A stretch of DNA of 50,898 bases from Agathobacter sp. (lineage in GTDB: Bacteria > Bacillota > Clostridia > Lachnospirales > Lachnospiraceae), in the NCBI GenBank assembly GCA_017481285.1, contig JAFUPI010000009.1, positions 1 to 50,898 of the forward strand, read 5' to 3'. The notes under the pieces are model-generated. The model saw nothing but the letters and a program-made list of their open reading frames with translations, was not told where the DNA came from and did not search any database. The position numbers were made by a program, and so were the translations under genes. Below, piece by piece: positions 11,980-36,638 of the stretch; position 1 is the stretch's first letter; each line of letters starts with the position of its first letter.

Positions 11980-12306
11980 ATGAAGAATTTAAAAGAATTA
12001 CGAAAACAAAATAACCTCAGTCAACAAAAACTTGCAGATATTTTGCATGTTAGTCAGCAATCCGTTTACAAGTATGAAAACGACATTACATCCCCTGACA
12101 TTGAGACCTTAATTCGTATGGCGGATTACTTCAATACATCCATTGACTATCTCGTCGAGCACACGGACATTCCACACAAAATTGAACCGGTGAAGGAAAC
12201 CATGTTGAATGAGGATGAATCCAAATTAATTGATAATTATCGCAAACTGTCTTCATCTCAAAAGAAACTCGTGCAAGCAATTACCGAGGAATATATTCGC
12301 GATTAA
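11980..12306 (+). CDS. XRE-family transcriptional regulator
   Basis: 108 residues. An HTH_3 domain fills residues 1-58 (LRKQNNLSQQKLADILHVSQQSVYKYEND), with a Cro/CI-like helix-turn-helix, followed by a short helical tail of unknown role. A TGCTAAAAT extended -10 lies at 11946-11955. Transcribed away from the 79-residue gene, which it may regulate (inference). A bidirectional terminator follows. Confidence 0.88.
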   Translation: MKNLKELRKQNNLSQQKLADILHVSQQSVYKYENDITSPDIETLIRMADYFNTSIDYLVEHTDIPHKIEPVKETMLNEDESKLIDNYRKLSSSQKKLVQAITEEYIRD

Positions 12307-12381: not shown

Positions 12382-12972
12382 TTACTCGCGGAATAATCTG
12401 TGGAAAATACTATAAAAGAAAAATTCTATCAAAAGCATTCCCACTCCAATTACTACATATACCATTGCCAAGCGCTGAATATGATTACCAACGCCCGCTT
12501 GCCATATAATATCGAATGGGCTTCCTGGATTTGCTTTTTCCAAATATTTCTCCTCAGAAATCTTTTCCTCATTCGTTCCTTTTTGGTATAAAACCATTCC
12601 GTCATCTGCAACTGCCATATCCGTAGATTTCATCACATGGAAACGTTTTATAATATCAACTGGAAACCCATCTAAGCATACAATTCTTTTTTCGTTGTCT
12701 TCATTTATATATTTCACATAATAATCATTATGTCCTGCATTATTGATTCCTACAATATCACAATCTTTAAAATATGCTGTGTTTCCTAAATTTTCATAGG
12801 ATAGGTCTTTATCTGAAATTCTATAAATCAAAAAATTCTGCACTAATACAACCAACACAATATTTATAAAAAAAACTGCTACCCATATAAAAATTGACAC
12901 TTGAGATTTTAATGGTTTTGGGAACAAACGACGAAACAAGGTCCCTGAATTCCAATATACAGAATCACTCAT
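12382..12972 (-). CDS. membrane protein of unknown function in SPFH operon
   Basis: 196 residues from the ATG at 12972, chosen because AGGAGGTG lies 6 bases upstream; a longer in-frame start at 13002 would lie inside the preceding gene. Two transmembrane segments, one near residues 26-49 and one near 168-190, flank a roughly 115-residue extracytoplasmic domain (PepSY/DUF-like beta pattern, unrecognised). Third gene of the SPFH/RHH operon, starting 1 bp after the RHH stop. Confidence 0.8.
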   Translation of the reverse strand: MSDSVYWNSGTLFRRLFPKPLKSQVSIFIWVAVFFINIVLVVLVQNFLIYRISDKDLSYENLGNTAYFKDCDIVGINNAGHNDYYVKYINEDNEKRIVCLDGFPVDIIKRFHVMKSTDMAVADDGMVLYQKGTNEEKISEEKYLEKANPGSPFDIIWQAGVGNHIQRLAMVYVVIGVGMLLIEFFFYSIFHRLFRE

Positions 12973-12973
12973 A

Positions 12974-13204
12974 TCATTCACCTCCTTCTTCCAATTCCTC
13001 ATTTAAGAAATCCAAGTCAAAAGGTTTATCTAGTTCGGTGGATACATATCCCCCGTTTTTCTTTCGTTGTTTGACACATTCGGTCAATAAGTATTCTATC
13101 TGGCCGTTCACAGATCGAAAATCATCCTCTGCCCAAGCTGCGATGGCATTGTAAAGCTTAGCAGAAAGACGAAGCGGAACCTGTTTTTTCTGATTATCTG
13201 CCAT
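12974..13204 (-). CDS. ribbon-helix-helix (Arc/MetJ-type) DNA-binding protein
   Basis: 76 residues. The N-terminal strand VPLRLSAKLYNAIAAWA and following VNGQIEYLLTECVKQR match the Arc-like fold: beta ribbon, helix, helix. The tail is Asp/Glu-rich. It sits 3 bp after the SPFH gene, a pairing often seen in Lachnospiraceae and related bacteria. The two TGATATCA palindromes in the operon promoter are good candidate binding sites, which would make it an autoregulator (inference). It is not evidently an antitoxin: no toxin-like partner is present. Confidence 0.87.
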   Translation of the reverse strand: MADNQKKQVPLRLSAKLYNAIAAWAEDDFRSVNGQIEYLLTECVKQRKKNGGYVSTELDKPFDLDFLNEELEEGGE

Positions 13205-13207
13205 AGC

Positions 13208-14200
13208 TTAATACAGACTTCCTGAATTTACAATTGGCTGAGCCTCTTTGTTGCCACAAAGTACAACCAAGAGATTAGAAACCATCGCTGCTTTTCTCTC
13301 TTCATCCAATTCTACTGTATTTTTCTCACTGAGTCTTTCTAATGCCATTTCTACCATGCCCACTGCACCATCCACGATGAGTTTTCTAGCATCTACAACT
13401 GCAGCAGCCTGCTGACGCTGAAGCATTGCTGCTGCAATTTCAGGTGCATATGCTAAGTAGGTAATGCGTGCATCTACGATTTCAAGACCAGCCTCCTGAA
13501 CGCGGGACTGAATTTCTTCTTTGATACGGTTGGCAACAATATCGCTGGAGCCACGAAGGCTGCCATCATCCGCAAGTCCATCACCTGTGGTATCTACGTT
13601 TGGAGCCACATCATAAGGATAAATACGAACAATATTACGAAGTGCACTATCACATTGTAAGGATAAGAACTCTTTATAGTTATCTACATTGAAGGCAGCT
13701 TTGGCAGTATCTACCACACGCCACATAACTGCGATACCAATTTCTACCGGGTTACCTAAGCAGTCATTGATTTTCTGCTTGTTATTGCTCAGAGTCATAA
13801 TCTTAAGGCTCATACGGTTTCCTGTCTCTACTGCAAGCATTTTTTCACTGGTGCTTACATCGCCACTCTGTTTCAACGAAGTATGTGCCGCAGGATTTAC
13901 CGCTGCACAAAGTGGATTTACAAAATAGAAGCCTTCCCCCTTTAATGTGCCGTAATATTCACCAAATAAGGTAAGCACCAATGCTTCCTGTGGTTTTAAA
14001 ACCTTAAGTCCCGCAAAACAGATACAGGAAAGAAAGAACCCTGCAATAGATAAGAGGATAAGCACTACACCTAATGCGCCTTCTGCTGTCTCTGTCATGG
14101 TAATACCACCCACGAAACCTACTATAGATAAAACCAATACCAAAATAAAGAATAGCATCATTGCTAAACCATTCTTTTTATTCGTCAACACTTTTTCCAT
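13208..14200 (-). CDS. SPFH/band-7 domain membrane protein (stomatin/flotillin type)
   Basis: 330 residues. Two hydrophobic segments (about 12-34 and 43-64) precede an SPFH domain (about 66-280) beginning VLKPQEALVLTLFGEYYGTL and including RSSDIVANRIKEEIQSRVQEAGLEIVDARITYLAYAPEIAAAML-type sequence (shown here as the segment around residues 213-262). SPFH proteins form membrane rings that organise microdomains and affect proteases or stress responses. No NfeD partner is nearby. Start has AAGGAGG 9 bases upstream. Confidence 0.9.
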   Translation of the reverse strand: MEKVLTNKKNGLAMMLFFILVLVLSIVGFVGGITMTETAEGALGVVLILLSIAGFFLSCICFAGLKVLKPQEALVLTLFGEYYGTLKGEGFYFVNPLCAAVNPAAHTSLKQSGDVSTSEKMLAVETGNRMSLKIMTLSNNKQKINDCLGNPVEIGIAVMWRVVDTAKAAFNVDNYKEFLSLQCDSALRNIVRIYPYDVAPNVDTTGDGLADDGSLRGSSDIVANRIKEEIQSRVQEAGLEIVDARITYLAYAPEIAAAMLQRQQAAAVVDARKLIVDGAVGMVEMALERLSEKNTVELDEERKAAMVSNLLVVLCGNKEAQPIVNSGSLY

Positions 14201-19514: not shown

Positions 19515-19540
19515 AAGGGGAGCCTTACGGCTCCCCTAAT
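19515..19540. terminator. bidirectional intrinsic terminator
   Basis: GGGGAGCC / GGCTCCCC stem (19517-19524 with 19529-19536), T-rich on both flanks, between the convergent DUF975-like gene (+) and the short STAND gene (-). Confidence 0.85.
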
Positions 19541-20875
19541 TTATGCATATCTATGTTGTAATCTTTGTAGAATTTCAAAATACTCTTCTTCCGAATACTC
19601 TGTTGGAATCTGCTCCTGCTCTAGCTGTTCTTTTAATTTTAGCAAAGACCAATTATTCTCCCTAACATATTTTGCAAGCTGACGAAGTATTCCTGCATGA
19701 CACCAAAACACATTACTTACAATATCTTCTAGTGCCTGTCTATCTGCTTCTTCCAAATAACCATCATAATTATCACGGAAAATAAGACTTGCTGCATCTT
19801 GGGTAATTGGTCGCAGGTGATAACATTCAAAACCTTCGATTTGACATTCACATGACGTTGCAAGAATTGCCGCCGGAAGATTGCACAAACATTTCAACTC
19901 GTGCTCATCAATGCCCTTATCCATTCCATCCAAAATAACAAGATTTCGTTGTCCTTCTGGCATGGAAACAGTCTCTATTTCCTTCATCTCTTCCTGCAAA
20001 AAGACCGCGATACCATCCACCAAAGCCTCTTCCATACAAATCTTCAAAAACTGTCGAATCAACTCTGTTTTGCCACTTCCACCAATTCCACTGATTAAGT
20101 ATTTCCCGCCCTGTGCTAACATCTCGCGAAGTTCAAAGAGCTCCACCTCTCTTCCAAAGAAATGCCCTTGTTTTAAAGCTGGGGCACTATTCTCTAGAAA
20201 ATTTTCCGTATAGAAGACAACCTGCTTTCTCACAGCATCACAATCTTCCTGATATCGTTTTAACATCTCATGCAGACTGTAGTTCTTATCCGAACGAATC
20301 CTATGTAAGTGTTCCTCACCTTCACCATTACCCATCAACGCATGAATCGTAAACATAGTGAGTATCCATCCACAGCAAAAGGTATCTACCATAAGCCCTT
20401 GGCCTTCCAGCAACCTACGCGCCTCCATTGCATTTCGGAAGAAATCAGATGCCTCTTGTGTAAATGCATCATCCCTTTCTTCATACATTTCAATCATCGC
20501 AGGAATCTTCTTAACGAAGTTTTCCACATTATACTGTCTCTCCAATAAAAAAGACATATATTGTCGAATCTGTCGTATTACGGTATCATAATCTGCTGCC
20601 AGCATGACTTCTTCTGCATATTCTTTGTAAATAGATAAACGTTCACTTCGATTACAGATTTCAGAAATATACCGATTTCTAGAACCTTCCGCACGCCATA
20701 AAATCTTACCTGTCTTACGATTTTTGAAATCAATTAAAAGATTCTCCAAATAAAATTTATTCAGCGTCAAACCTGTTCTGTTGTCTTTTTTGATAATTCC
20801 CTCAGAGTAAACAGGGTAGTCATTTAAAGTTAGAAATTTGTAGATGCTTTTCAGAGATAGCACTTCTCTCGCCAT
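19541..20875 (-). CDS. short STAND-type P-loop ATPase lacking the TPR half
   Basis: 444 residues, colinear without gaps with the first 290 or so residues of the 982-residue paralogue encoded just upstream. N-terminal conserved domain of unknown family (1-235), then an NB-ARC-like ATPase with Walker A GIGGSGKTE (263-271) and Walker B NLVILDGMD (311-319). Compared with the paralogue, about 20 residues before Walker B are missing, the sensor TSR is TSC (340-342), and the protein ends where the paralogue enters its winged-helix/TPR portion. It is not frameshifted: a clean stop and terminator follow. It may act as a dominant partner or decoy of the long form (inference). Own promoter with two direct repeats. 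Confidence 0.8.
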   Translation of the reverse strand: MAREVLSLKSIYKFLTLNDYPVYSEGIIKKDNRTGLTLNKFYLENLLIDFKNRKTGKILWRAEGSRNRYISEICNRSERLSIYKEYAEEVMLAADYDTVIRQIRQYMSFLLERQYNVENFVKKIPAMIEMYEERDDAFTQEASDFFRNAMEARRLLEGQGLMVDTFCCGWILTMFTIHALMGNGEGEEHLHRIRSDKNYSLHEMLKRYQEDCDAVRKQVVFYTENFLENSAPALKQGHFFGREVELFELREMLAQGGKYLISGIGGSGKTELIRQFLKICMEEALVDGIAVFLQEEMKEIETVSMPEGQRNLVILDGMDKGIDEHELKCLCNLPAAILATSCECQIEGFECYHLRPITQDAASLIFRDNYDGYLEEADRQALEDIVSNVFWCHAGILRQLAKYVRENNWSLLKLKEQLEQEQIPTEYSEEEYFEILQRLQHRYA

Positions 20876-20914
20876 TGCTTTTCCATCCTGTCTCGTTTCT
20901 TTGAATCTTGGAAA

Positions 20915-20943
20915 ATTATAGCATTCTAAAATTTTACGAACAA
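20915..20943 (-). promoter_or_regulatory. promoter of the short STAND gene
   Basis: Minus-strand -35 TTGTTC (20938-20943), 17-bp spacer, perfect -10 TATAAT (20915-20920). The poor -35 and the adjacent repeats suggest activator dependence. Confidence 0.75.
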
Positions 20944-20960
20944 TAAAGCCACCTGTTTTC

Positions 20961-20995
20961 GTCCGTTTTGTTCACAAAATAGTCGATTTTGTTCA
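20961..20995 (-). promoter_or_regulatory. activator-type direct repeats upstream of the short STAND gene
   Basis: Two 14-bp direct repeats, minus strand TGAACAAAATCGAC (20982-20995) and TGAACAAAACGGAC (20961-20974), exactly 21 bp apart. From the start of the second repeat to the -35 box there are 31 bp. The same arrangement occurs at 28749-28783. Two-turn spacing is like LytTR-family response regulator sites; no LytTR gene is in this window. Confidence 0.75.
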
Positions 20996-21004
20996 CCACA
21001 AAAG

Positions 21005-23953
21005 TTATACTTCTAATCTCTTTTTGGCATCCACTACTTTCGGATGTGCTTCTCCATAAAATTGCTCTAAAATTGGAGCTGCTTCCTGTAAATACTCCAA
21101 TTCCTTTTCACGATTTCCAATCGCATGATAAGCCTTTGATAAATTATTTGCCGTCTCTCCTAATGCCAAACCTCCTAACAATTTTCCTCTTACATATGCT
21201 TCTGGTAAATACTCTAAAGCTGCCTCTGTCATACCTCGATCCAGATACATAACACTCATATTATTGAGAATACGATGCTTATCAAAATCGTACCCATCCA
21301 AAGACATATAAATCTCAAGAGCTTCCTTGTACATTTCCGCTGCTTCATCAAATTTCTGTGCTTTATTCAGTGCCATGGCTAAATCAACTACCACTACCGC
21401 ATAATTGCTCTTTTCCGTCTCCTGGTACAATTCCTGTGCCAATCTTCTGCTTTCGGTTAATTCCGCAACTCCAAATCCTTCGTCCCCACGATACATTGCC
21501 AAATTTCCGCGACGATGAATCAAGTGCTGTGTAAGGAAATATGATTTGTTTTCGTTTAGATTTTCTAATTCATCTATGAGCTTTTCTGCTTCATCAAACT
21601 GTCGTATTGCCATATAAAGGTCACACAGATTCGAAATCAAGAGCTGCATCTCTTTCCCTTTTTCATATCCATTTTTTCGTCCGATTTCAATTCCCTTTTG
21701 CAGCCATTGCATATAGGCATCATAGTCTCCCTGTTGCACTACTACACAAGCCTTGAGTGAGTATGCACCAATTAGGATTGCATTATAACTACATTTTTCT
21801 AATACGTAATTACTTAAAACCTCTGCCAGCTCCACGCCTCCGGAGTGATAATATCGCATACCTAAGCTTTCCGCAAATGCATACTTCATAGTATCTGGTA
21901 TTTCGCTATTATCCTTTATCAAATCAAACTTCTGCTGCAAATCCTGTAAATGTTCCTTCTTTAGCACACTTTGTAGTGCACTCTGCATGATATACAAACC
22001 TACAAGCGTTATCTCGGTAAGCTCTTCTGATTTTTTTGCAACCTTTGTCAAGACATCTAACCCCGCAGTTGTAATGCCATAATAAATACTTTCTAGCACA
22101 ATCGATACAAGGTATAATTTCACATATTTTTCTGTGAATTTTCCAGATAACTTGCTTATCATTGGGCGTATTAACATCGTTGTCTGCATCAATTCAGTAT
22201 CCAATTCCATATATCTATCGTTTTCATATATGATTTCTGGAATCAATTCTGCACTAACCTTTTTGCCAATGTTTTCCCAAGCCAGTATAACTGTATTGAA
22301 AAATACGGAGCATTCTACTTCTGTTGGCGACGCCGATAATATACACTCTGAAATAAACGGGTGCATTGAGTAACCACTTTCTGATTTTTCCAACCAACCC
22401 TTTTCCCAAAGTTTCTGAAGTACGTTTCCAATCTGCTCCTCTTGGGACAAATCCTGCAGGTATTTTTCCGCCCAAGTCAAATCATAGTTGCGATATGGTA
22501 ATGTCGCAACTATACGAAGCAGTGTCGTCTCAACCTGCGTTCTTTGAGCCGCTGCATACATCTGCAAATACACTTGTCTCATGCATTCGTAACGTTCGGT
22601 CTCCGTATATCCAATTGGTATATTACCAAGTTTTAACTGTTCCTTTAGTTTTTGCAAAGACCAGCCATTATTTCTTGCGGTTCTTGCTAAAAGACGCAAA
22701 CTTAAAGTATGACACCACAAATCTTCGTTTATAATGTCCTGTAAACATCGCTTATCTTCTTCGTTCAAATAACTACCATAATTATCGCGGAAAATTAATC
22801 CTGCAGCCTCTTGCCCAATCGTTCTTAGGCGATAGGTTTTCAACCCTTTCAGCCTCTGATAACGTGATGTAATAAATATCGTTGCAGGAAGCTTGCACAA
22901 CACCTCCAATTCCGCCTCATTGACACCACCATCCATATTGTCAATAATAAGCAATACTTTCTTATCTCCCAGCATTCGAATATGTGTTAAAACTTCTTTA
23001 TAGCTTTCATTCAAATCCGTGCCGTGGATTCCTGGAAATGCCCTTACCATGCTTCGTGCCAAGCCACCTTCATACTGCACAATTCCGATATAATCGGCTG
23101 TTTTTTCTTCTAAACAGATTTTTAAGAATTGTCGCATCAGCTCCGTCTTGCCGCTTCCGCCCATACCGCTAACGAGATACTGTCCTCCTTTTTCTAGCAG
23201 TTCCGATAACTCAAACAACTCTGCCTGTCTACCAAAAAAGTGTCCATTTCCCAAAGCTGGACGACTTAGTTCCGTATTGTTACCTGTGAGGAATTTTACT
23301 TCACGAACTTCATTTTGCTTTTTCTCACTATATCTTTTTAGCATGCAAAGCAAGGTGAATTCCTTGTCATCTTTGATTTTATGAATAAAGCTCTCTGTAT
23401 CTTCCTGTGTAGTGATTGCAAATAAAATGAAGTAGGAAAGAAACCAGCTTATACAAAAAGCATTTGCTTTTACACCTGGTGTCTGCAAATTTGCATACTG
23501 CTGAATTGCTTTCTTAAAGTATTCTGCGACCTCTTCTGTGAATGCTTCATCTTCTTTTTCCATCAAGTCTACGTAAGCATCTACCTTTCTCCAAAAACCT
23601 TCTGAATTATACTCTCTCTCCAAAAGAAAACTCATCAACTGACGAATCTGACGAAGCACTGTCTCCTGATCTGCTGCAGCAAGCACCTCTTTTGCATATT
23701 CTTTATAAATCACCTGTTCTCCACTTCGATTACAAATCTCGGACACATAACGATTTCGACTGCCGTCCATACGCCAAATAACCTTGCCATTTTTACGTTC
23801 TTTGAAATCTAGCAAAATATTTTCATCACAAAAATTATTCAAGGTCAAACCACGTTTACGTTCTTTACGAATGATACCATCGGAATAGACCGGATAGTCA
23901 TTTGTGGTTAGAAATTTGTATATATTTTTTAAAGATAGAATTTCGTTTTTCAT
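21005..23953 (-). CDS. STAND-type ATPase with C-terminal TPR repeats
   Basis: 982 residues, cytosolic. Domain order: conserved N-terminal domain of unknown family (1-235; LTLNN, SRNRYVSEICNRSGEQ, IYKEYAKEVL), NB-ARC-like ATPase with GRQAEL, Walker A GMGGSGKTE (263-271), Walker B VLLIIDNMD (333-341) and sensor TSR (362-364), winged-helix-like section (460-560), then tetratricopeptide-type helical repeats to the end (about 600-982), closing with a kinesin-light-chain-like YGEAHPKVVDAKKRL. Such proteins act as signal-gated switches in regulation or immunity; the effector function of the N-domain is unknown. Good promoter; followed by its truncated paralogue. Confidence 0.87.
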   Translation of the reverse strand: MKNEILSLKNIYKFLTTNDYPVYSDGIIRKERKRGLTLNNFCDENILLDFKERKNGKVIWRMDGSRNRYVSEICNRSGEQVIYKEYAKEVLAAADQETVLRQIRQLMSFLLEREYNSEGFWRKVDAYVDLMEKEDEAFTEEVAEYFKKAIQQYANLQTPGVKANAFCISWFLSYFILFAITTQEDTESFIHKIKDDKEFTLLCMLKRYSEKKQNEVREVKFLTGNNTELSRPALGNGHFFGRQAELFELSELLEKGGQYLVSGMGGSGKTELMRQFLKICLEEKTADYIGIVQYEGGLARSMVRAFPGIHGTDLNESYKEVLTHIRMLGDKKVLLIIDNMDGGVNEAELEVLCKLPATIFITSRYQRLKGLKTYRLRTIGQEAAGLIFRDNYGSYLNEEDKRCLQDIINEDLWCHTLSLRLLARTARNNGWSLQKLKEQLKLGNIPIGYTETERYECMRQVYLQMYAAAQRTQVETTLLRIVATLPYRNYDLTWAEKYLQDLSQEEQIGNVLQKLWEKGWLEKSESGYSMHPFISECILSASPTEVECSVFFNTVILAWENIGKKVSAELIPEIIYENDRYMELDTELMQTTMLIRPMISKLSGKFTEKYVKLYLVSIVLESIYYGITTAGLDVLTKVAKKSEELTEITLVGLYIMQSALQSVLKKEHLQDLQQKFDLIKDNSEIPDTMKYAFAESLGMRYYHSGGVELAEVLSNYVLEKCSYNAILIGAYSLKACVVVQQGDYDAYMQWLQKGIEIGRKNGYEKGKEMQLLISNLCDLYMAIRQFDEAEKLIDELENLNENKSYFLTQHLIHRRGNLAMYRGDEGFGVAELTESRRLAQELYQETEKSNYAVVVVDLAMALNKAQKFDEAAEMYKEALEIYMSLDGYDFDKHRILNNMSVMYLDRGMTEAALEYLPEAYVRGKLLGGLALGETANNLSKAYHAIGNREKELEYLQEAAPILEQFYGEAHPKVVDAKKRLEV

Positions 23954-24004
23954 TCATGAAGCCCCCTGTGTTTTCTATTCATAAAGCTAGTTTAATTCAA
24001 TAAA

Positions 24005-24033
24005 ATTATATTAAACATCTATAAAACCGTCAA
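24005..24033 (-). promoter_or_regulatory. promoter of the long STAND gene
   Basis: Minus-strand TTGACG (24028-24033), 17-bp spacer, TATAAT (24005-24010). Near-consensus, so it may be constitutive or repressed through the inverted repeat upstream. It does not carry the TGAACAAAA repeats of the neighbouring promoters. Confidence 0.8.
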
Positions 24034-24076
24034 TTTTTATTCGGTCATAACCAAGTCGGTGAAAACCGAATAAAAA
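24034..24076. promoter_or_regulatory. perfect 12-bp inverted repeat abutting the -35 box
   Basis: TTTTTATTCGGT (24034-24045) and ACCGAATAAAAA (24065-24076), half-site centres 31 bp apart (three helical turns), directly upstream of the STAND -35. A candidate operator. The right arm shares its A-run with the U-tract of the neighbouring terminator, so part of the symmetry could be incidental. Confidence 0.5.
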
Positions 24077-24099
24077 GCAGGGCAATGTAATTGCCCTGC
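24072..24099 (-). terminator. terminator of the transglutaminase/lipoprotein operon
   Basis: Minus-strand GCAGGGCAAT / ATTGCCCTGC stem (24077-24099), 3-nt loop, then TTTTTATT. It lies 18 bp after the last lipoprotein stop. Confidence 0.9.
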
Positions 24100-24116
24100 C
24101 TAGTTCAAATAGTATT

Positions 24117-25193
24117 TTATTTTACTGGGTAAATATTAAGGAATGCACTTACAATATCTACCTCATCACTCTCATTGGCATTTGGAATTTGTCCTGTTAT
24201 TACATTTCCATCTGGCATTTCGATAAAAAACAATCGACTCTGTTCGCCTCTTCTGTCCATTGCGAACCCAACATAAATATTCTCATCTCCGACTTTTCCG
24301 GCTGTTTTAACAACCTTTCCCTCATTTACTTCATAGCCAACCTTACCCAAAAAACCTTCAAAGTACTCCAATCCCGATGTGTATCTATTCACTTGTATTT
24401 TAATTTCTTGATATGCAAGAGATGCATCCTTGTAATTTAAACTTATATCCTGTCCATCAAGCACATAAACGTCATCTACCACAAAAACCTCTGCATCAAA
24501 TTCCACAACATACAATGGTTCACTTGTCTCTCTATCTGTTAACATATATGCATATCCTGGTGTGTTTGGCTCTTTACCATCGACTGTAACTTTCAGTAAA
24601 GCCTCTTTCAGCAAATTCTCCACCTTATTTAATTCATCAACACTTCCTCTTGAACTCATAACTAAAATGCCTTCGTTGAACTGAAACAGCCATTCTTGCA
24701 TTATATAATCTGCATTATACATTATCGTATAGGTTGCTGCTTCCATAGAACCAATCGTTACATTTTTCAGCTCTGAAAACTCACGTTCTTTTCCGTCTAG
24801 ATAACTTGCTTTTTCTTTCTCATAATAGAGACCTGCACTAAAGTCAGGAGCTTCTGAAGAAAACCTCATGTTAAAATACGCATCTGATTCTACATGCTTA
24901 AAGCGAGGGCCGATTGCTGCCAAATCAGTGACTGGCTCATCCTCCTCTATAGCTAATAGATTCGCATCATAGGTTATTTCACAGGTAACCATATCACTTC
25001 TTATACCTGTTGCATTATATGATACTGTAGTTGCTTTACTCTCTTCTTTATCCTGCACGTTTTCTTCATTTCCATTTGTACCAGAATTACTACCTGCACC
25101 AGAATTATTTCCTGTATTAGAATCACCGCAGCCTACAAGAAGTGATACTCCCATTGCCATGATAAGTAATAAACTTAATAATTTTCTTTTCAT
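24117..25193 (-). CDS. lipoprotein of unknown function (third in operon)
   Basis: 358 residues. Type II signal peptide with lipobox LVGC at about residues 19-22, then an Asn/Gly/Ser-rich spacer (23-45). The mature part appears to hold two beta-rich sections (about 60-205 and 210-358); the first ends in a pattern like the C-terminus of the 198-residue lipoprotein upstream (…NEGILVMSSRGSVDEL), suggesting a shared fold. Anchored to the outer face of the membrane. No family recognised. 7 bp after the preceding gene. Confidence 0.8.
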   Translation of the reverse strand: MKRKLLSLLLIMAMGVSLLVGCGDSNTGNNSGAGSNSGTNGNEENVQDKEESKATTVSYNATGIRSDMVTCEITYDANLLAIEEDEPVTDLAAIGPRFKHVESDAYFNMRFSSEAPDFSAGLYYEKEKASYLDGKEREFSELKNVTIGSMEAATYTIMYNADYIMQEWLFQFNEGILVMSSRGSVDELNKVENLLKEALLKVTVDGKEPNTPGYAYMLTDRETSEPLYVVEFDAEVFVVDDVYVLDGQDISLNYKDASLAYQEIKIQVNRYTSGLEYFEGFLGKVGYEVNEGKVVKTAGKVGDENIYVGFAMDRRGEQSRLFFIEMPDGNVITGQIPNANESDEVDIVSAFLNIYPVK

Positions 25194-25200
25194 ATTTGTA

Positions 25201-25797
25201 TTACTCCTCTACTACAAACTTAATCGCTGCAAGCTCTTTTTCAAGGTCTGAGCCTTCTTCTATGGAACCTTGCATTCTAAAATTTAATGCCACACCAGCA
25301 TCCAATTCTAGTACATATATTTTATCCCAGAATGCCCCTGTTCCTGGTTCAACCAAAGTAAAATAATGTACCGCATAGCCAGAAAGTGAACTTTCTTCAT
25401 GCTTACCAATCTCACCACCCATTACGGAAATTACGTAATTCATAAAATCCTCTGCTGTCGCTGTATGTGTTGCATACACATCCCACATCTCACCTAAGTA
25501 AACCTCTGGCGTTCCATCCTCTTTCTCGCCTGCAACACATTCCACTACTGTTGGATCATAATATGCTACAACTTTCTTTTCACTATCAGATCGTAATTCT
25601 ACTTTTTCAGAATAGATATTTGTATCAATTTCATCCTCTTTTGTAGTTGTATCTTCTTTTTCTGTATCCTTGTTGGTACCAGCCTCTGTTCCCTTACTTG
25701 GCTCTTTGCTATTATCCTTGTCGTTTCCTCCACACCCTACGAGCATTGATACACTCATAGACATAATTAATAATAAACTTAATATTCTTCGTTTCAT
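25201..25797 (-). CDS. lipoprotein of unknown function (second in operon)
   Basis: 198 residues. Signal peptide MKRRILSLLLIMSMSVSMLVGCGG with lipobox LVGC is near-identical to those of its two neighbours (only the start is quoted elsewhere), followed by a Lys/Glu/Thr-rich spacer to about residue 60 and a roughly 135-residue beta-rich domain (EKVELRSDSEKKVVAYYD to the C-terminus). Likely a paralogue of part of the next lipoprotein. Outer-membrane-leaflet location does not apply in a monoderm; it would be tethered to the cell membrane facing out. Confidence 0.8.
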   Translation of the reverse strand: MKRRILSLLLIMSMSVSMLVGCGGNDKDNSKEPSKGTEAGTNKDTEKEDTTTKEDEIDTNIYSEKVELRSDSEKKVVAYYDPTVVECVAGEKEDGTPEVYLGEMWDVYATHTATAEDFMNYVISVMGGEIGKHEESSLSGYAVHYFTLVEPGTGAFWDKIYVLELDAGVALNFRMQGSIEEGSDLEKELAAIKFVVEE

Positions 25798-25809
25798 TTT
25801 TTCCTTCTC

Positions 25810-26769
25810 CTATTCTTCGGTATATTGTTCTCTTGTCAAAGTATAATCAAGATAGTTTATCGTTTCTCCATCATCATTTTCTTTTGCATATTCTGTAAAC
25901 GAAATATATCCACAAGCGGCTGTTTCATCTTCAAAAATGATTGTCAATGAACAATAATCCGCATACTCCTCATTTACGCCGGTTTGATTATCCACTACAA
26001 AGCGAACGTTTCCATACTTTGTATTGTATGTAAATTCACTCTTACTAGCTTCGTTCGCTATGGCTGTGTTATAAGCATCTGATTCAATAGCATCCAATTC
26101 CCATGCTTTCATAATGTCTTCAACCATTTCACACTCGTGTTCAATCAAATATGACATTGCACCTTCCAGCCATTCTGCCTGAACTGGAGCCACTTCATCA
26201 TAGTATGGCTCATCCTTCCAATACGCCCAATCGATATGTGCATGGATGCTGTCTACTACATATTCTGGTTTTTCTAAACGATCCAAGGAATCTACTTTAT
26301 ACGCACCCTTTTCCATTACCATATCGTATCCTGATAATCCATATTGGAAGCTTACATATAACTTATTTCGATTTAAATTTCTTGTTACACCAGATACATA
26401 ATATTCACGTTCTCTTGAAGCATCTTCAAAGAGTTCTTCGTCTTTTACAATATTTCCATAATAGGTATACTGATCCTTTTTCGTAATGGTGTTTGAACTG
26501 CTATATTTGCCCGCTTCGTTAAAATAGTAGCCCATTTTAGCGTCGCCTTTCGCTTCGAGCCAATTCATTCCATCCAGCACTACAGAATCCATGAATTCTT
26601 CTAAATGCAGATTCACTTTCTCCTCATCCGACAGTGATTCCTGCTCGTTATTGGTTCCATTCCCTACATCTGCATTACCTTCAGAATTTGCGTCACCGCT
26701 TCCACCACAGCCTACGAGCATTGATACACTCATCGTCAGGATTAATAAGATTCCGAATATTCTTTTCAT
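25810..26769 (-). CDS. lipoprotein of unknown function (first in operon)
   Basis: 319 residues from the ATG at 26769, chosen because GAGGAG lies just upstream and the signal peptide MKRIFGILLILTMSVSMLVG starts there; a longer frame would begin inside the transglutaminase gene. Lipobox LVGC, acidic linker (NEQESLSDEEK), then a domain rich in Tyr and acidic residues with conserved-looking IDWAYWKDEPYYDEVAPVQ. No recognised family. Its start lies 5 bp before the previous stop, a sign of coupled translation. Confidence 0.8.
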   Translation of the reverse strand: MKRIFGILLILTMSVSMLVGCGGSGDANSEGNADVGNGTNNEQESLSDEEKVNLHLEEFMDSVVLDGMNWLEAKGDAKMGYYFNEAGKYSSSNTITKKDQYTYYGNIVKDEELFEDASREREYYVSGVTRNLNRNKLYVSFQYGLSGYDMVMEKGAYKVDSLDRLEKPEYVVDSIHAHIDWAYWKDEPYYDEVAPVQAEWLEGAMSYLIEHECEMVEDIMKAWELDAIESDAYNTAIANEASKSEFTYNTKYGNVRFVVDNQTGVNEEYADYCSLTIIFEDETAACGYISFTEYAKENDDGETINYLDYTLTREQYTEE

Positions 26770-26773
26770 TCTC

Positions 26774-28669
26774 TTACTCCTCACTCTTCCCTTCATTGTT
26801 CTTACGATACCAAATCACGCCTGCGGCTCCCGCTGCTGCAAGAACAACAACAACTACAAGAATCCCCCAAACATAACCAGGAACACCATCTTTTTCTTCT
26901 TTGTCTGGTTTACTGGTATCATTATTCTCAGTCTCTTCTTCTAAAACATCTTCTGTCACAGCTTCCGTGGATGCATCTTCCACATTTTCCGTTGTAGGTG
27001 CTTTTGCAGCTACATTGATATTCGTACTTGCTTTTCCATCTGTAAAGTTAAAAGTTATGGTATGTTCCCCTTCCGAAAGTGTATCCATAAATTCTTTTGT
27101 AAAAATAACAATCGTAGAACCTTCTTTTACTGTGTAGTATTTCTTATCTACTTCTTTTCCATCTACTTCTACACTTACGAATTTTTCCAGTGCACCTTCC
27201 GCACGAAGTGAAAATTCTTTCATCTCTGGTTCGTATGTACTTTCTGCACCATCAAGCACCTTGTATTCAGATTTTGAATCACTGTTGGTTGTATCATTAT
27301 TTGTTGCATCGCTGTTTGTATTATTATTATTTGATGCATTATCATTATTTGTTGTATTACCGCTTCCAGTGCCTGAATTACCTGAGCCACTTCCTGAAGA
27401 AGGCAATGGATAGTCTGTTGCAGAAAGTTTAGATAAGATATTATTTTTATATCTATCTGTCAAATAGTGAGGTTGTAATTCTGCTGGTTTAAAATTATTT
27501 GTTCCCTTTAAAATAATATCTGTTGTAGATGGGTCAGTATAATAATACTTTCCATCAATTAATACAAGATTATAGGTATGTGCAGCTGCATCCATACCCA
27601 TTACAATACGGTTTGCAATTCCAACCTCACGAAGCATTCGATAAAGTAAAATAGCTTTCCCCTGGCAGGTTGCCTGCCCCTGGCACAATGCACTGTATCC
27701 GGAATGGTCCACCGCATTATACGAACTAATACCTCTTACATTCGCATTTATGTATTTCATGAACTCTACAACAGCTTCTGCTTTACTTAAATTCTTTGTA
27801 TGTGCAAGTGCTCCTCCTGCAGCAAATAACGAAGCAAGCTTTCTTTCAAATTCTGCTTCCTGTGTGCTTGTTGTCATATATCGATGATCATTCAAACAAC
27901 AGATTATCGCCTTATCTCCATCTGCGGATGGAAGGGAGCCTCCCATATAGTTATTGTAATAATAATCGCCTCCACGTGGGTCACTGCCTAATTGGTCACT
28001 GTAAAAATCATAGCCATCATAGGAATCTATTTGCCATACATTGTATCCTTCCGCATAAGTTAGTATTCCTTCGTTCTTTAACTTCGCCGATAAACTATCC
28101 GAAAGTCTGTAGATATGATTTCCCTTTTCTTTGTTCGCTAATACCTTGCTCATATCCGAAAGCAATTTTTCCCATGAATCATAGGTACCGCACTCTATGT
28201 ATTTCTCTTTCAAATAGGCACTCTCCATGCGGGAATTATCATTCAGCCATAAATCAATGTATCTGCCGCTGATACCGGTCACAGCCTCTTCCACTGTTGC
28301 AGAGCCATGCATCGCCACAAGTGACCCTTCATATCCGTCACAGTTCATGTCGAAAAAAACACGGTCATCGGATTGTATCAAGGATTTATCAATCGTTGCC
28401 TTATATGCAGTACTAGAATAGCCTGATTTGTACTCTGTTACTGGATATGTCGCAATGATACTTCCATCTCTTACAATATAAATTTGTCCCGTTGCACCTT
28501 TAATGGCTGTGAAATCGTTATTATTTCTAAGTTCAAAACAGTAATCTGCATTATCGGCAGCAAATACTTTTTCAGGTGGCGTAGCCAATGTCATGAGCAT
28601 GCAGCATACCAGCACCAAAGCAAACAGCGACTTCCAACTATTTACCAAATTGTTTAACTTCATCTTCAT
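26774..28669 (-). CDS. membrane-anchored transglutaminase-like protein
   Basis: 631 residues. Signal peptide 1-37 (cleavage likely after VFA). The transglutaminase/protease-like core has C335 in ATCQGKA, H364 in AAHTYNLV and D379 in YYYTDPS, an intact triad. A Ser/Gly/Asn/Thr-rich linker (about 425-465) leads to a beta-sandwich with IVIFTKEFMDTLSEGEHTIT (X2/Ig-like), an acidic stretch and a C-terminal transmembrane helix (about 600-620) with basic tail. It would sit on the outer face, either cross-linking or cleaving surface proteins (inference). First gene of the operon with three lipoproteins; promoter has the 21-bp repeats. Confidence 0.88.
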   Translation of the reverse strand: MKMKLNNLVNSWKSLFALVLVCCMLMTLATPPEKVFAADNADYCFELRNNNDFTAIKGATGQIYIVRDGSIIATYPVTEYKSGYSSTAYKATIDKSLIQSDDRVFFDMNCDGYEGSLVAMHGSATVEEAVTGISGRYIDLWLNDNSRMESAYLKEKYIECGTYDSWEKLLSDMSKVLANKEKGNHIYRLSDSLSAKLKNEGILTYAEGYNVWQIDSYDGYDFYSDQLGSDPRGGDYYYNNYMGGSLPSADGDKAIICCLNDHRYMTTSTQEAEFERKLASLFAAGGALAHTKNLSKAEAVVEFMKYINANVRGISSYNAVDHSGYSALCQGQATCQGKAILLYRMLREVGIANRIVMGMDAAAHTYNLVLIDGKYYYTDPSTTDIILKGTNNFKPAELQPHYLTDRYKNNILSKLSATDYPLPSSGSGSGNSGTGSGNTTNNDNASNNNNTNSDATNNDTTNSDSKSEYKVLDGAESTYEPEMKEFSLRAEGALEKFVSVEVDGKEVDKKYYTVKEGSTIVIFTKEFMDTLSEGEHTITFNFTDGKASTNINVAAKAPTTENVEDASTEAVTEDVLEEETENNDTSKPDKEEKDGVPGYVWGILVVVVVLAAAGAAGVIWYRKNNEGKSEE

Positions 28670-28702
28670 TCGTATCCTTCTCCCTTTAATTATGATACAT
28701 CC

Positions 28703-28731
28703 ATTTTAGCATTGGGTATTTTTTGAAACAA
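28703..28731 (-). promoter_or_regulatory. promoter of the transglutaminase/lipoprotein operon
   Basis: Minus-strand -35 TTGTTT (28726-28731), 17-bp spacer, -10 TAAAAT (28703-28708). It matches the short STAND promoter in -35 type and spacing. Confidence 0.7.
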
Positions 28732-28748
28732 TGCGAGGAGGCTAGATA

Positions 28749-28783
28749 GTCGTTTTTGTTCATTAAATTGACATTTTTGTTCA
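28749..28783 (-). promoter_or_regulatory. activator-type direct repeats upstream of the transglutaminase operon
   Basis: Minus strand TGAACAAAAATGTC (28770-28783) and TGAACAAAAACGAC (28749-28762), 21 bp apart, with 31 bp from the start of the second repeat to the -35 box. Repeat sequence, period and distance equal those at 20961-20995. Confidence 0.75.
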
Positions 28784-32305: not shown

Positions 32306-32352
32306 TGGGCTGTCGCAAAATATAATTTGTCGACAGCCCATTATTTTTTTAT
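32306..32352. terminator. bidirectional intrinsic terminator
   Basis: GGGCTGTCG / CGACAGCCC stem (32308-32316 with 32331-32339) between convergent genes; plus strand continues ATTATTTTTTTATTTTT, and the minus-strand exit is also T-rich. Confidence 0.88.
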
Positions 32353-33569
32353 TTTTGCTTAGTTACATATTGGAAAATGGCTTCATTATCTGAATTATAG
32401 CCCCACAAAATATTTACATCTGCAAAATATTCTTCCAATAAATTATACGCTGCTAATTGCTGTGAACCACTATTAGCCTTGTAACTACCAATGCCTATGA
32501 TTCTTCCATCTCTCGTACCCACATTCAATTCATTGTTATATTCCGTATTTTTTACATACACCCATATAATTTCATCCAAAGGAACAATTGCGGCTGCAAA
32601 ATTGGTAAAAACAAAATCTGGTGTTATTTTTAACTTATCTTCCTTTTTTCCCAGACCTCCCAATGCATATAACTGGTCTGCTGCCAATATCAGCTCTTGT
32701 CTTTGCTTTAATGTCTTTATACTACGCGATTTTGTGTAATCCTGTGCGAGCCAAACTCCGCCCATAATAAGTACGAAAAAACCAAATAGCATTAGCACTG
32801 GCAAGCAGATTTCAGCATAGATAATATGTAACATCCAATAATCTGCCCCACAAATCAAAGTACCGATTACACAAATCCAAGTCAATATCTTTATGGAGCT
32901 ATCTACTACTATCATCTGTTTCAAATACTGCTCCGCGTCTTTCTCCTCTGTGAAATGACGTAGAATTGCACTTGTTGCCTGAACCTTCTCCTTCGATGGA
33001 ACAACGCCCATGGTATTGCCACCATCAAATTCATACCCCCAGTTTTGCTCCAAACTCTCAACAATCTGATTGTCCAGACGTGCACCATTCTTCATTCCCG
33101 TATGAATCGTCAAGACCTCTTCTCCGTTTGCATAATAAACCATTTTCTCCATATACTCATTTTTCCATCTTTCAGTATAGGAAAGCAATTTTACAATTAA
33201 AGCCTTACCCGGAACTCCGCGCAAACCACTCTTTACATATTTTGCATTGTTTTCCTCTGTATATGGAACTGCCATACGACCATTGATTCTTCGCAGGGAA
33301 ATCCTTCTCTTTTTTTTCATGAAATCATATACTACAATCTCATCCCCTCGAACTACCACGCGAGGTCTTGAAGCAAATTGTAAAAAAACAACGCCAAATA
33401 AAACCAATAATACACTTAAACCAAATAGTGCCATAACCGGACCTGTCATTAAAGTTGGATCAAGCCAAAGACCTAGCAAAATAACCGCAAGCATTCCTCC
33501 AAAGAAAAGCATATACAGCCATGCTATGGCTTTCATGATAAAGCCTCTCTTTTTCACCTTGCATTTCAT
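32349..33569 (-). CDS. membrane protein of unknown function, possible PH-like domains
   Basis: 406 residues. Transmembrane pairs at about 13-32/42-62 and 240-258/265-285 each precede a soluble beta-rich section (70-190: VVVRGDEIVVYDFMKKKRRISL; 300-406: LKITPDFVFTNFAAAIVPLDEIIWVY) that resembles bacterial PH-like domains. This looks like an internal duplication. No named family recognised. AAGGGG precedes the ATG. It lies 21 bp after the YfcC-like gene and is probably co-transcribed. Confidence 0.75.
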   Translation of the reverse strand: MKCKVKKRGFIMKAIAWLYMLFFGGMLAVILLGLWLDPTLMTGPVMALFGLSVLLVLFGVVFLQFASRPRVVVRGDEIVVYDFMKKKRRISLRRINGRMAVPYTEENNAKYVKSGLRGVPGKALIVKLLSYTERWKNEYMEKMVYYANGEEVLTIHTGMKNGARLDNQIVESLEQNWGYEFDGGNTMGVVPSKEKVQATSAILRHFTEEKDAEQYLKQMIVVDSSIKILTWICVIGTLICGADYWMLHIIYAEICLPVLMLFGFFVLIMGGVWLAQDYTKSRSIKTLKQRQELILAADQLYALGGLGKKEDKLKITPDFVFTNFAAAIVPLDEIIWVYVKNTEYNNELNVGTRDGRIIGIGSYKANSGSQQLAAYNLLEEYFADVNILWGYNSDNEAIFQYVTKQK

Positions 33570-34919: not shown

Positions 34920-35087
34920 AATAACACCTCGAATTCTACAAAAAATCTTTTCTAACCACTTTATACCTTGCAGCTAGAAAATGCAAGACCCATTATTGTT
35001 AATTAGGCTATAAATTTTTCAAAATATTTATAGTTGATAGATTTTTTAAAAAACAAAGTGTATTATATACAAAAAGGAGGAAAAACG

Positions 35088-35861
35088 ATGAAAATATCGA
35101 AAGAGAACTACAGAAATTTTTATTTTGGAACTGCGGCCGAAACATATATCCAGAGTGAATTTTATTCTTTTGGTTACGAAGCCTATAAAGCACAACCAGA
35201 TATTGGTTATGACTTATGTGTAACAAATAATAGTTTATTTACATTTGAAAAAAAATCATTTAAACAATACAATGTACAAATTAAATCTAGGTTTATCTGG
35301 GATAAAGGAACCAAAATTTATATATCTCATACTGATTTTGAAATGCTATTAAATGATAAAAACAGTATATTAATTGTTGTATTCCAAAGGCCCCGAATAG
35401 GCGTAGACGGATATGCCTTTTGGGAACCCAGAGATACATATAATGAATACATAATAGATAAAGGACTAGAGCTATCATGGAGCGAGCATCTATTAACGAC
35501 TGGAGAAATTAAAAATGCTACAGATGCTGAACATTCATTATTTATACTTGGATACGATAAAGAATATTTTTGGATTAATAATAGTCAACTAAAACGTTTG
35601 AACAGCGATGGGTTTATATTTGAAGATGACTTTGAAAATGAAAGAGTATATTTGAATGTGGAAAAAAATCTTATAAAAGAATGTTCTTCCGATTCCAGCG
35701 AAAATATCGAATATACACTAATGCAACTTTGCAACAAAGATGGAACAAAATACATACTTTCAAATGTTTTATTTAGTTTAAAATATTTAGTATCAGAAGA
35801 TGGATTGAACCAACCTTTTTTTAATGAAGGAAAAATGTTTACTGAAGATTTTGATTATTAA
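35088..35861 (+). CDS. PD-(D/E)XK/DUF4365-like protein
   Basis: 257 residues from the ATG at 35088, which follows a strong AAAAGGAGG; the open frame extends upstream but has no RBS there. N-terminal nuclease-like pattern: E16 region GTAAETYIQSEFYSFGYEA, then PDIGYDLCV and VQIKSR, the E…D…QxK layout of DUF4365 and related PD-(D/E)XK proteins. The rest (to 257) is unassigned. Base composition is clearly more A/T-rich than the neighbours and it stands alone on the plus strand, so recent acquisition is likely. It might be a restriction or toxin-type nuclease (inference); nothing nearby is a methylase. Confidence 0.7.
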   Translation: MKISKENYRNFYFGTAAETYIQSEFYSFGYEAYKAQPDIGYDLCVTNNSLFTFEKKSFKQYNVQIKSRFIWDKGTKIYISHTDFEMLLNDKNSILIVVFQRPRIGVDGYAFWEPRDTYNEYIIDKGLELSWSEHLLTTGEIKNATDAEHSLFILGYDKEYFWINNSQLKRLNSDGFIFEDDFENERVYLNVEKNLIKECSSDSSENIEYTLMQLCNKDGTKYILSNVLFSLKYLVSEDGLNQPFFNEGKMFTEDFDY

Positions 35862-35863
35862 TC

Positions 35864-35895
35864 AACAGGCTCTGGATAACCAGAGCCTGTTTTAT
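35864..35895 (+). terminator. intrinsic terminator of the DUF4365-like gene
   Basis: AACAGGCTCTGG / CCAGAGCCTGTT stem, 12-bp arms (35864-35875 with 35880-35891), ATAA loop, then TTATATTATTTTTTT. Convergent with the HTH-MotA gene, whose stop it touches. Confidence 0.85.
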
Positions 35896-36638
35896 ATTAT
35901 TTTTTTATATAAACGAACCGCCGTAGGCATCAACAAAATCTCTACTATACAACAATAAAACACAGCTAAAATTGCAACAGCAACATGTGGTCCTAATTTA
36001 TTCAAATCAGACAAAAAAGCTATGACTGCAATTATACCAACAACAAATGTAAAAACACCAGCAATAGGTATTGTACATAGTACCATTTTCATCGCACACC
36101 ATGAAGATTTCATCTGGTCATACGTATAATTCTTTTTTCCATACACGATATTAAATCCTTGCAAAAAGTCCCACAAACTTTCAGACGCAATTAACACAAA
36201 AAATGTAATGCCAAGTGGAATCAAAACAGATGGCATATCGATAAACCAAGCAAGCGATTCTGCTCCTGCTGTGCTTAAAATTACAAAAACACAAGCAATT
36301 ACCAACAGAATAAAGCTAAAAATAGTTCCAAAGATCGTCCAATTTCCCTTTTTTCTGTGATACTCACTCTCCTTTACCAATTCTACCATATTTTCCTCAG
36401 CTCTATTTACATAATTCTCTTCCGAAAATTTTTCTCCGGATAATAACTCATTTACACTGATATTTAAAATAAGGCAGACATCCAAAAGTATTGCATTATC
36501 AGGCATACTTCTTCCCGTTTCCCATTTGGATACGGTTTTATCCGACACGCCAACCTGCTCTGCCAACTGACGTTGCGTTAGATTTTGTTGTCTTCTCATT
36601 TCTGCCATAAATTTCCCTGTCTTTTGCTGATTAAGCAT
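35892..36638 (-). CDS. XRE HTH regulator fused to a MotA-like membrane domain
   Basis: 248 residues. HTH_3 domain at 8-62 (MRRQQNLTQRQLAEQVGVSD). Four transmembrane helices at about 101-122, 134-152, 183-209 and 217-240. Two parts match the adjacent MotA-like protein in order: IDMPSVLIPLGITFF (133-147) with its IHIPSAIVTFGGALF (36-50), and KLGPHVAVAILAVFY (214-228) with its AIGSGMALALITTLY. The peptidoglycan-binding MotB partner is missing; this gene occupies its place. It overlaps the upstream stop by 8 bp. Could be a membrane-bound transcription factor gated by an ion channel (inference). Alternative: an XRE regulator with an unrelated 4-TM domain; the similarity is by eye. Confidence 0.75.
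   Translation of the reverse strand: MLNQQKTGKFMAEMRRQQNLTQRQLAEQVGVSDKTVSKWETGRSMPDNAILLDVCLILNISVNELLSGEKFSEENYVNRAEENMVELVKESEYHRKKGNWTIFGTIFSFILLVIACVFVILSTAGAESLAWFIDMPSVLIPLGITFFVLIASESLWDFLQGFNIVYGKKNYTYDQMKSSWCAMKMVLCTIPIAGVFTFVVGIIAVIAFLSDLNKLGPHVAVAILAVFYCCIVEILLMPTAVRLYKKII

Follow-up and report, generated by a model that had tools for sequence, protein, structure and literature searches.

The 50,898-nucleotide stretch of Agathobacter sp. contig JAFUPI010000009.1 analysed here, the whole of which is called the window, carries on its minus strand a set of genes for surface proteins and, downstream of it, a pair of genes for STAND ATPases. The surface operon begins with the gene of a transglutaminase-like protein and continues with those of three putative lipoproteins. 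The two STAND genes are codirectional paralogues encoding 982 and 444 amino acids (STAND982 and STAND444), with 55% identity over residues 1-292 and 47% over residues 292-439. Two promoters concern us: P1, which lies between the two STAND genes and upstream of STAND444, and P2, upstream of the transglutaminase/lipoprotein operon (Table 1). P1 and P2 share one architecture.

Table 1. Promoter elements of P1 and P2, followed by the genes and other signals of the region.
Feature	Coordinates	Strand	Remarks
P1 distal site TGAACAAAATCGAC	20982..20995	-	9-mer centre ~ -83 from presumed start
P1 proximal site TGAACAAAACGGAC	20961..20974	-	9-mer centre ~ -62
P1 -35 box TTGTTC	20938..20943	-	3/6 against consensus
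P1 -10 box TATAAT	20915..20920	-	spacer 17 bp
P2 distal site TGAACAAAAATGTC	28770..28783	-	9-mer centre ~ -83; no counterpart in G340
P2 proximal site TGAACAAAAACGAC	28749..28762	-	9-mer centre ~ -62; retained in G340
P2 -35 box TTGTTT	28726..28731	-	3/6 against consensus; same in G340
P2 -10 box TAAAAT	28703..28708	-	spacer 17 bp; same in G340
Transglutaminase-like protein, probably secreted; first gene of the operon	26774..28669	-	Transglut_core; CBM_X2 below cut-off; signal peptide by eye
Putative lipoprotein 1	25810..26796	-	lipobox by eye; no Pfam match
Putative lipoprotein 2	25201..25797	-	lipobox by eye; no Pfam match
Putative lipoprotein 3	24117..25193	-	lipobox by eye; no Pfam match
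Terminator-like stem after the surface operon and before STAND982	24075..24101	-	12 pairs
Promoter-like site before STAND982, TTGACG-17-TATAAT	24005..24033	-	11/12; without repeats
STAND982	21005..23953	-	N-terminal domain as in STAND444, NTPase and TPR repeats
STAND444	19541..20875	-	N-terminal domain of unknown fold and NTPase with P-loop; no TPR part; Pfam matches below curated cut-offs
Terminator-like stem after STAND444	19516..19537	-

The 9-mer TGAACAAAA occurs exactly four times in the window, always on the minus strand (20966-20974, 20987-20995, 28754-28762 and 28775-28783), and the copies form two pairs with a period of 21 bp, one at P1 and one at P2. The original prediction, made from the letters of the stretch, had described this arrangement, and each of its measures proved base-exact: the repeats extend to 14-mers ending in GAC, GAC, GTC and GAC, the proximal copy starts 31 bp ahead of the -35 box at both promoters, this box reads TTGTTC or TTGTTT, and a 17-bp spacer separates it from the -10 box. 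If transcription is assumed to start 7 nt past the -10 box, the proximal 9-mer has its centre at -62 and the distal one at -83 in both cases. Each -35 box agrees with the consensus at 3/6 positions, and both promoters fall below the threshold of the promoter scan.

The copy number of TGAACAAAA alone is unimpressive, as shuffled sequence contains 1.3 copies on average and 4/100 shuffles reach four. When 44 upstream stretches, each of 200 bp, were cut from the window and spacings of 9-60 bp considered, TGAACAAAA was the only 9-mer present twice at equal spacing in two regions, and any comparable shared pair appeared in 1/3000 dinucleotide shuffles, a figure that leaves out the two further equal distances (31 bp to the -35 box and the 17-bp spacer). 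The earlier claim that such agreement is unlikely by chance is thus upheld. Neither promoter is a recent copy of the other, because P1 and P2 share only 3/17 positions between GAC and the -35 box.

A relative provides further evidence on P2. At E <=0.001, 25/60 genus genomes (own genome included) match the 631-aa transglutaminase protein; by far the strongest match besides the own genome is in genome G340 (E 1.1e-49), the others being mostly to single domains. G340 is 96% complete, and its promoter was reached through the protein match and synteny, without use of the motif, which makes it a real, independent test. The syntenic neighbours are 84-99% identical at the protein level; the transglutaminase protein is 41-44% identical over parts, and the lipoproteins 29-48% over parts. 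The P2 promoter of G340 reads TGAACAAAAAAGAC-N17-TTGTTT-N17-TAAAAT. Compared with P2 of the window, the proximal site is conserved at 9/9 positions together with its GAC, the -35 box at 6/6, the -10 box at 6/6, and the 31-bp distance is equal; the 17 bp between GAC and the -35 box are unchanged in length and identical at 4/17 positions. Longer aligned DNA blocks around P2 are ~80-87% identical. It can be read from this comparison which promoter parts are under constraint. The syntenic stretch of G340, the only portion of that genome examined for STAND genes, contains neither of the two. Further genes at 12382-14200, 32349-33569 and 35034-36638 of the window, including those of a Band_7 protein and an HTH_3 protein, are also without full counterpart in that stretch.

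Within the own genome, a 71% complete assembly of 1.96 Mb in 100 contigs, there is no further pair below 2 mismatches, the next best having 2. At <=3 mismatches, the pair gives 12 matches, no more than the 15 for a reversed control pattern. The composite of two sites and promoter, at <=3 mismatches in 62 genus genomes, is found in the own genome only, twice, with 2 control matches. A single site with promoter has 11 matches in the own genome against 2 controls, an excess for which we offer no explanation beyond the A+T-rich make-up of promoters; a third zero-mismatch match of this kind, at C96:422, lies within a dusB-like gene (named by eye), at its 3' end, and is without a distal copy. Across the 62 genus genomes, the single-site promoter is matched with zero mismatches at P1, P2 and G340 and eight times at 3 mismatches, with 14 control matches; since this pattern includes G340 by construction, its information lies in the absence of others. 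With strict promoter-context patterns, one match is obtained in G340 and two in the own genome.

Across the family, the pair at <=1 mismatch has 31 matches outside the own genome in 299 genomes, against 18 for the control, and 7 of the 31 are copies of one repeat of genome G207; these numbers are close to chance. The G207 repeat (L015, L038-L040), present in seven copies in that genome, contains TGAACATAA-N12-TGAACAAAA. The sole exact pair outside the own genome in this set belongs to G156, from another genus, and has TTGCTT at a distance of 31 bp, with TATCAT 17 bp beyond that box. The composite has six matches outside the own genome in 397 family genomes (G156 with 0, one with 2 and four with 3 mismatches) and 2 control matches; its TTG and TANNAT parts were loosened after G156 had been seen, and under TTGTT/TANAAT the G156 match has 2 mismatches. 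We regard this match as suggestive, with a chance roughly estimated, not computed, at a few in a thousand. It sits at G156:C22:8283 after a DegV-like gene (named by eye), with no evident open reading frame (ORF) downstream, and the composite is absent from one other genome of the same genus (70% complete). At ~8380-8630 of that contig (L108), a tandem repeat of ~90 bp follows the pair, with a terminator-like stem seen by eye and no evident ORF; it is perhaps a small RNA. A scan of viral sequences returned 2 matches, one coding stretch in two contigs, which are due to chance. No wider genus or family regulon was found with the strict patterns used, which more varied sites would escape, and no prior description of the TGAACAAAA pair was found in the portion of the open-licence literature that was searched.

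We consider it likely, with a probability of about 0.7, that P1 and P2 are activator-dependent sigma-A promoters of one trans-acting activator serving the surface operon and STAND444. An activator is proposed because the weak -35 box (3/6), the good -10 box and the upstream sites two helical turns apart suit contact with RNA polymerase. The protein would bind TGAACAAAA(NNGAC) at the proximal site, centred near -62, and recruit RNA polymerase to a promoter whose -10 box is good and whose -35 box (TTGTTY) is weak; the second copy, which lies near -83 and thus two helical turns farther upstream, may assist in this genome and add strength. It would switch on the fast-evolving surface operon (transglutaminase and three putative lipoproteins) and, in this lineage, the TPR-less STAND444 as well, whose full-length paralogue STAND982 is preceded by a stronger promoter-like site without repeats. 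One activator for two transcription units is probable. As for the regulon that the original prediction had seen in the two promoters, the architecture is shared, the G340 orthologue supports it, and co-regulation of STAND444 and the surface operon may be inferred from these; a wider regulon was not found in the 62 genus genomes.

Several observations weigh against a single activator acting through paired sites. The distal repeat is absent in G340, where the place 21 bp upstream reads GGGGCTTTTGTTGT; the pairing seen at P1 and P2 is therefore not required in that genome, and the predicted conservation upstream of orthologues holds for P2 as a single site, without the distal one. The -35/-10 spacers of P1 and P2 are identical at 10/17 positions, so some common descent is possible. 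The 46 window proteins scanned with Pfam, to which the search for AraC genes was confined, include no member of the AraC or LytTR family, and no regulator emerged from the analysis. STAND444 has no orthologue among the 39 other genus genomes searched: it has matches in 3/40 genus genomes including the own, a sample to which G340 does not belong, and the other two cover only 128 and 57 residues and belong to proteins ~27-28% identical to STAND982. Finally, a terminator was looked for between STAND982 and STAND444 and not found; the two genes probably form a 982-444 operon with P1 as an internal promoter, and read-through from STAND982 is possible. STAND444 could be served by both promoters, of which P1 would raise STAND444 alone. 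The promoter and terminator assignments around STAND982 rest on score and place, because such sites are no commoner in the region than in shuffles (33 promoter-like sites against 31.0 expected, and 7 terminator-like stems against 4.7).

As to the nature of the proposed activator, an AraC/XylS-type protein (e.g. a YesN-like response regulator) acting on 14-15-bp bipartite half-sites (TGAAC...GAC) every 21 bp is a tentative candidate, with the odds against it. XylS sites are given as TGCA-N6-GGNTA-N6-TGCA-N6-GGNTA, and AraC half-sites as TAGC-N7-(6 bp) (PMC4514859); by our own arithmetic, this XylS formula yields a 21-bp repeat. The motif of the window is a 14-bp bipartite unit which, with a 7-bp gap, has a 21-bp period (TGAACAAAANNGWC + 7 bp). 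It agrees with bipartite units of 14-17 bp at that period in geometry only, and half-sites of this type would suit the 21-bp geometry about as well as LytTR sites. Known AraC/XylS sites, however, tend to abut the -35 box, whereas the unit of the window ends 17 bp from it, and the window scan had no AraC protein to offer.

The original prediction had likened the 21-bp period to sites of LytTR response regulators and had suggested looking for a LytTR or similar regulator with such sites in its own promoter. An AgrA/VirR-like LytTR regulator on two direct repeats 21 bp apart now appears unlikely. The spacing is the usual one, with 9-bp repeats and 12 bp between them in P1 and P2 (11-13 bp would be expected; G340 has one site), and the centre at -62 is near that of AgrA sites. 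Moreover, L042, one of the LytTR loci of the own genome, carries ahead of its regulator ACAAGAAAAACGAC, which agrees with the extended site at 9/12 positions and lies 31 bp ahead of TTGTAC-17-TATGAT. The sequence itself fits the family poorly. Against the broad LytTR consensus, the reverse orientation scores 6/8 in P2 and G340 and 5/8 in P1, random AT-rich 9-mers reach at least 6/8 in ~6.7% of cases, and stray 9-mers near the sites reach 7/8 in P1 and G340, at places not shared. The consensus is described as broad, with some true sites departing from it (PMC6193735). The other own-genome locus, L041, is a canonical LytTR regulatory operon: its promoter (G000:C39) reads ACCACTTAG-12-ACCTCTTGG-10-TTTACA-17-TATAAT and precedes a LytTR gene and an ORF resembling a membrane protein, yet its repeats are different and lie 10 bp from the -35 box. 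L042 has no matching distal repeat and at most one degenerate proximal site, and its LytTR domain finds at best 32% identity in G340, which nevertheless keeps the site. The two G340 loci matched by this domain, the only LytTR loci considered in that genome, have no site at <=1 mismatch, and the pair is found at neither of the 2 LytTR genes of the own genome, which at 71% completeness may lack others. A LytTR reading of the repeats is not supported by these comparisons.

It is also improbable that P1 is a copy of P2 which was carried along with the STAND insertion and has no present role. Such an origin would agree with the confinement of both promoters to a single 7.8-kb region among 62 genus genomes, with the absence of the STAND genes at the syntenic place in G340 and with the similar spacers already mentioned. 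It is disfavoured because what P1 and P2 share lies mainly in the motif parts: the two gaps are identical at 6/12 and 6/22 positions, and the features TTGTTTCAAAAAA and TATCATAATT, common to P2 and G340, are not found in P1.

Two HTH_3 proteins, at 11980-12306 and 35892-36638, are the DNA-binding families seen among the 46 window proteins, and the second is missing from the G340 syntenic stretch. The first, a small Cro/C1-type protein (E 6.2e-20), is 96% identical over 107 residues in G340, which retains the site. It is nonetheless a very improbable regulator: HTH_3-family proteins usually bind inverted repeats, the gene is ~16 kb from P2 and has no site at <=2 mismatches in the 300 bp upstream, and its neighbours are equally conserved in G340, so that conservation does not single it out. 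A STAND protein is unlikely to regulate P2, given that the G340 syntenic stretch is without both STAND genes and retains the site; the N-terminal STAND domain matches none of the DNA-binding families of Pfam, and its only two PDB sequence matches are weak (E 0.061 and 0.9). The tandem STAND paralogues at 19541-23953, one full-length and one TPR-less, give a weak PADLOC match to mad8.

That the repeats are the ends of an IS21-like mobile element that brought the promoter in is the most improbable origin and is rejected: tandem TGAACAAAA arrays do exist at 10 unrelated loci and in the seven G207 copies, but six loci around IstB matches have no such pair, no transposase family appears among the 46 proteins scanned, nor is there istA/istB beside the repeats, both pairs point the same way and neither has an exact inverted counterpart in the window, and the sequence between the motif parts differs between P1 and P2. 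The 10 arrays (L048-L057) have a 22-bp period and so do not match the 21-bp pair; they come from unrelated bacteria and include some with three copies; the one at L054 precedes a gene that by eye resembles a plasmid replication initiator, and iterons are possible there.

If the proposed link between P1 and P2 is real, a STAND switch would be set by the same signal as surface display. A more specific version, which we regard as quite unlikely, is that the fast-evolving surface operon has a dedicated regulator acting on few promoters in each genome, perhaps on a single one, and that in this lineage an internal promoter gained its site. The sensor-less STAND444 would then be raised relative to full-length STAND982 only during production of the surface proteins, and the cell would possess a transcriptional link adjusting an intracellular STAND switch to its own surface state; for instance, the switch might be held back or armed while a phage-accessible surface structure is displayed. 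Our results offer a base-exact and testable prediction, namely that the surface operon and the shortened STAND protein are co-expressed.

With regard to known systems, the operator of Bacillus subtilis DeoR (SorC family), ATTGAACAAAATTTCAAT, contains TGAACAAAA (PMC11229326). DeoR was rejected as a model for the sites, since its operator is a palindrome ending in TTTCAAT and the window sites do not have that half. AraC/XylS sites are alike in their ~14-15-bp bipartite units and 21-bp repeat, and unlike in the sequence of the boxes and in the distance to the -35 box. LytTR systems of the HdrRM/BrsRM type resemble P1 and P2 in that the promoter is preceded by two direct repeats of 9 bp separated by 12 bp. 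In most LRS-type LytTR operons, such repeats lie most often 10 bp ahead of the -35 box (PMC6193735), whereas those of P1 and P2 have another sequence and lie 22 bp from it. In this respect, P1 and P2 are closer to AgrA promoters, whose sites are centred near -60 (PMC4227749); the spacer is 17 bp here and 18 and 20 bp in the two agr promoters, and the P2 orthologue has one site only. The finding is ordinary in kind and interesting in detail.

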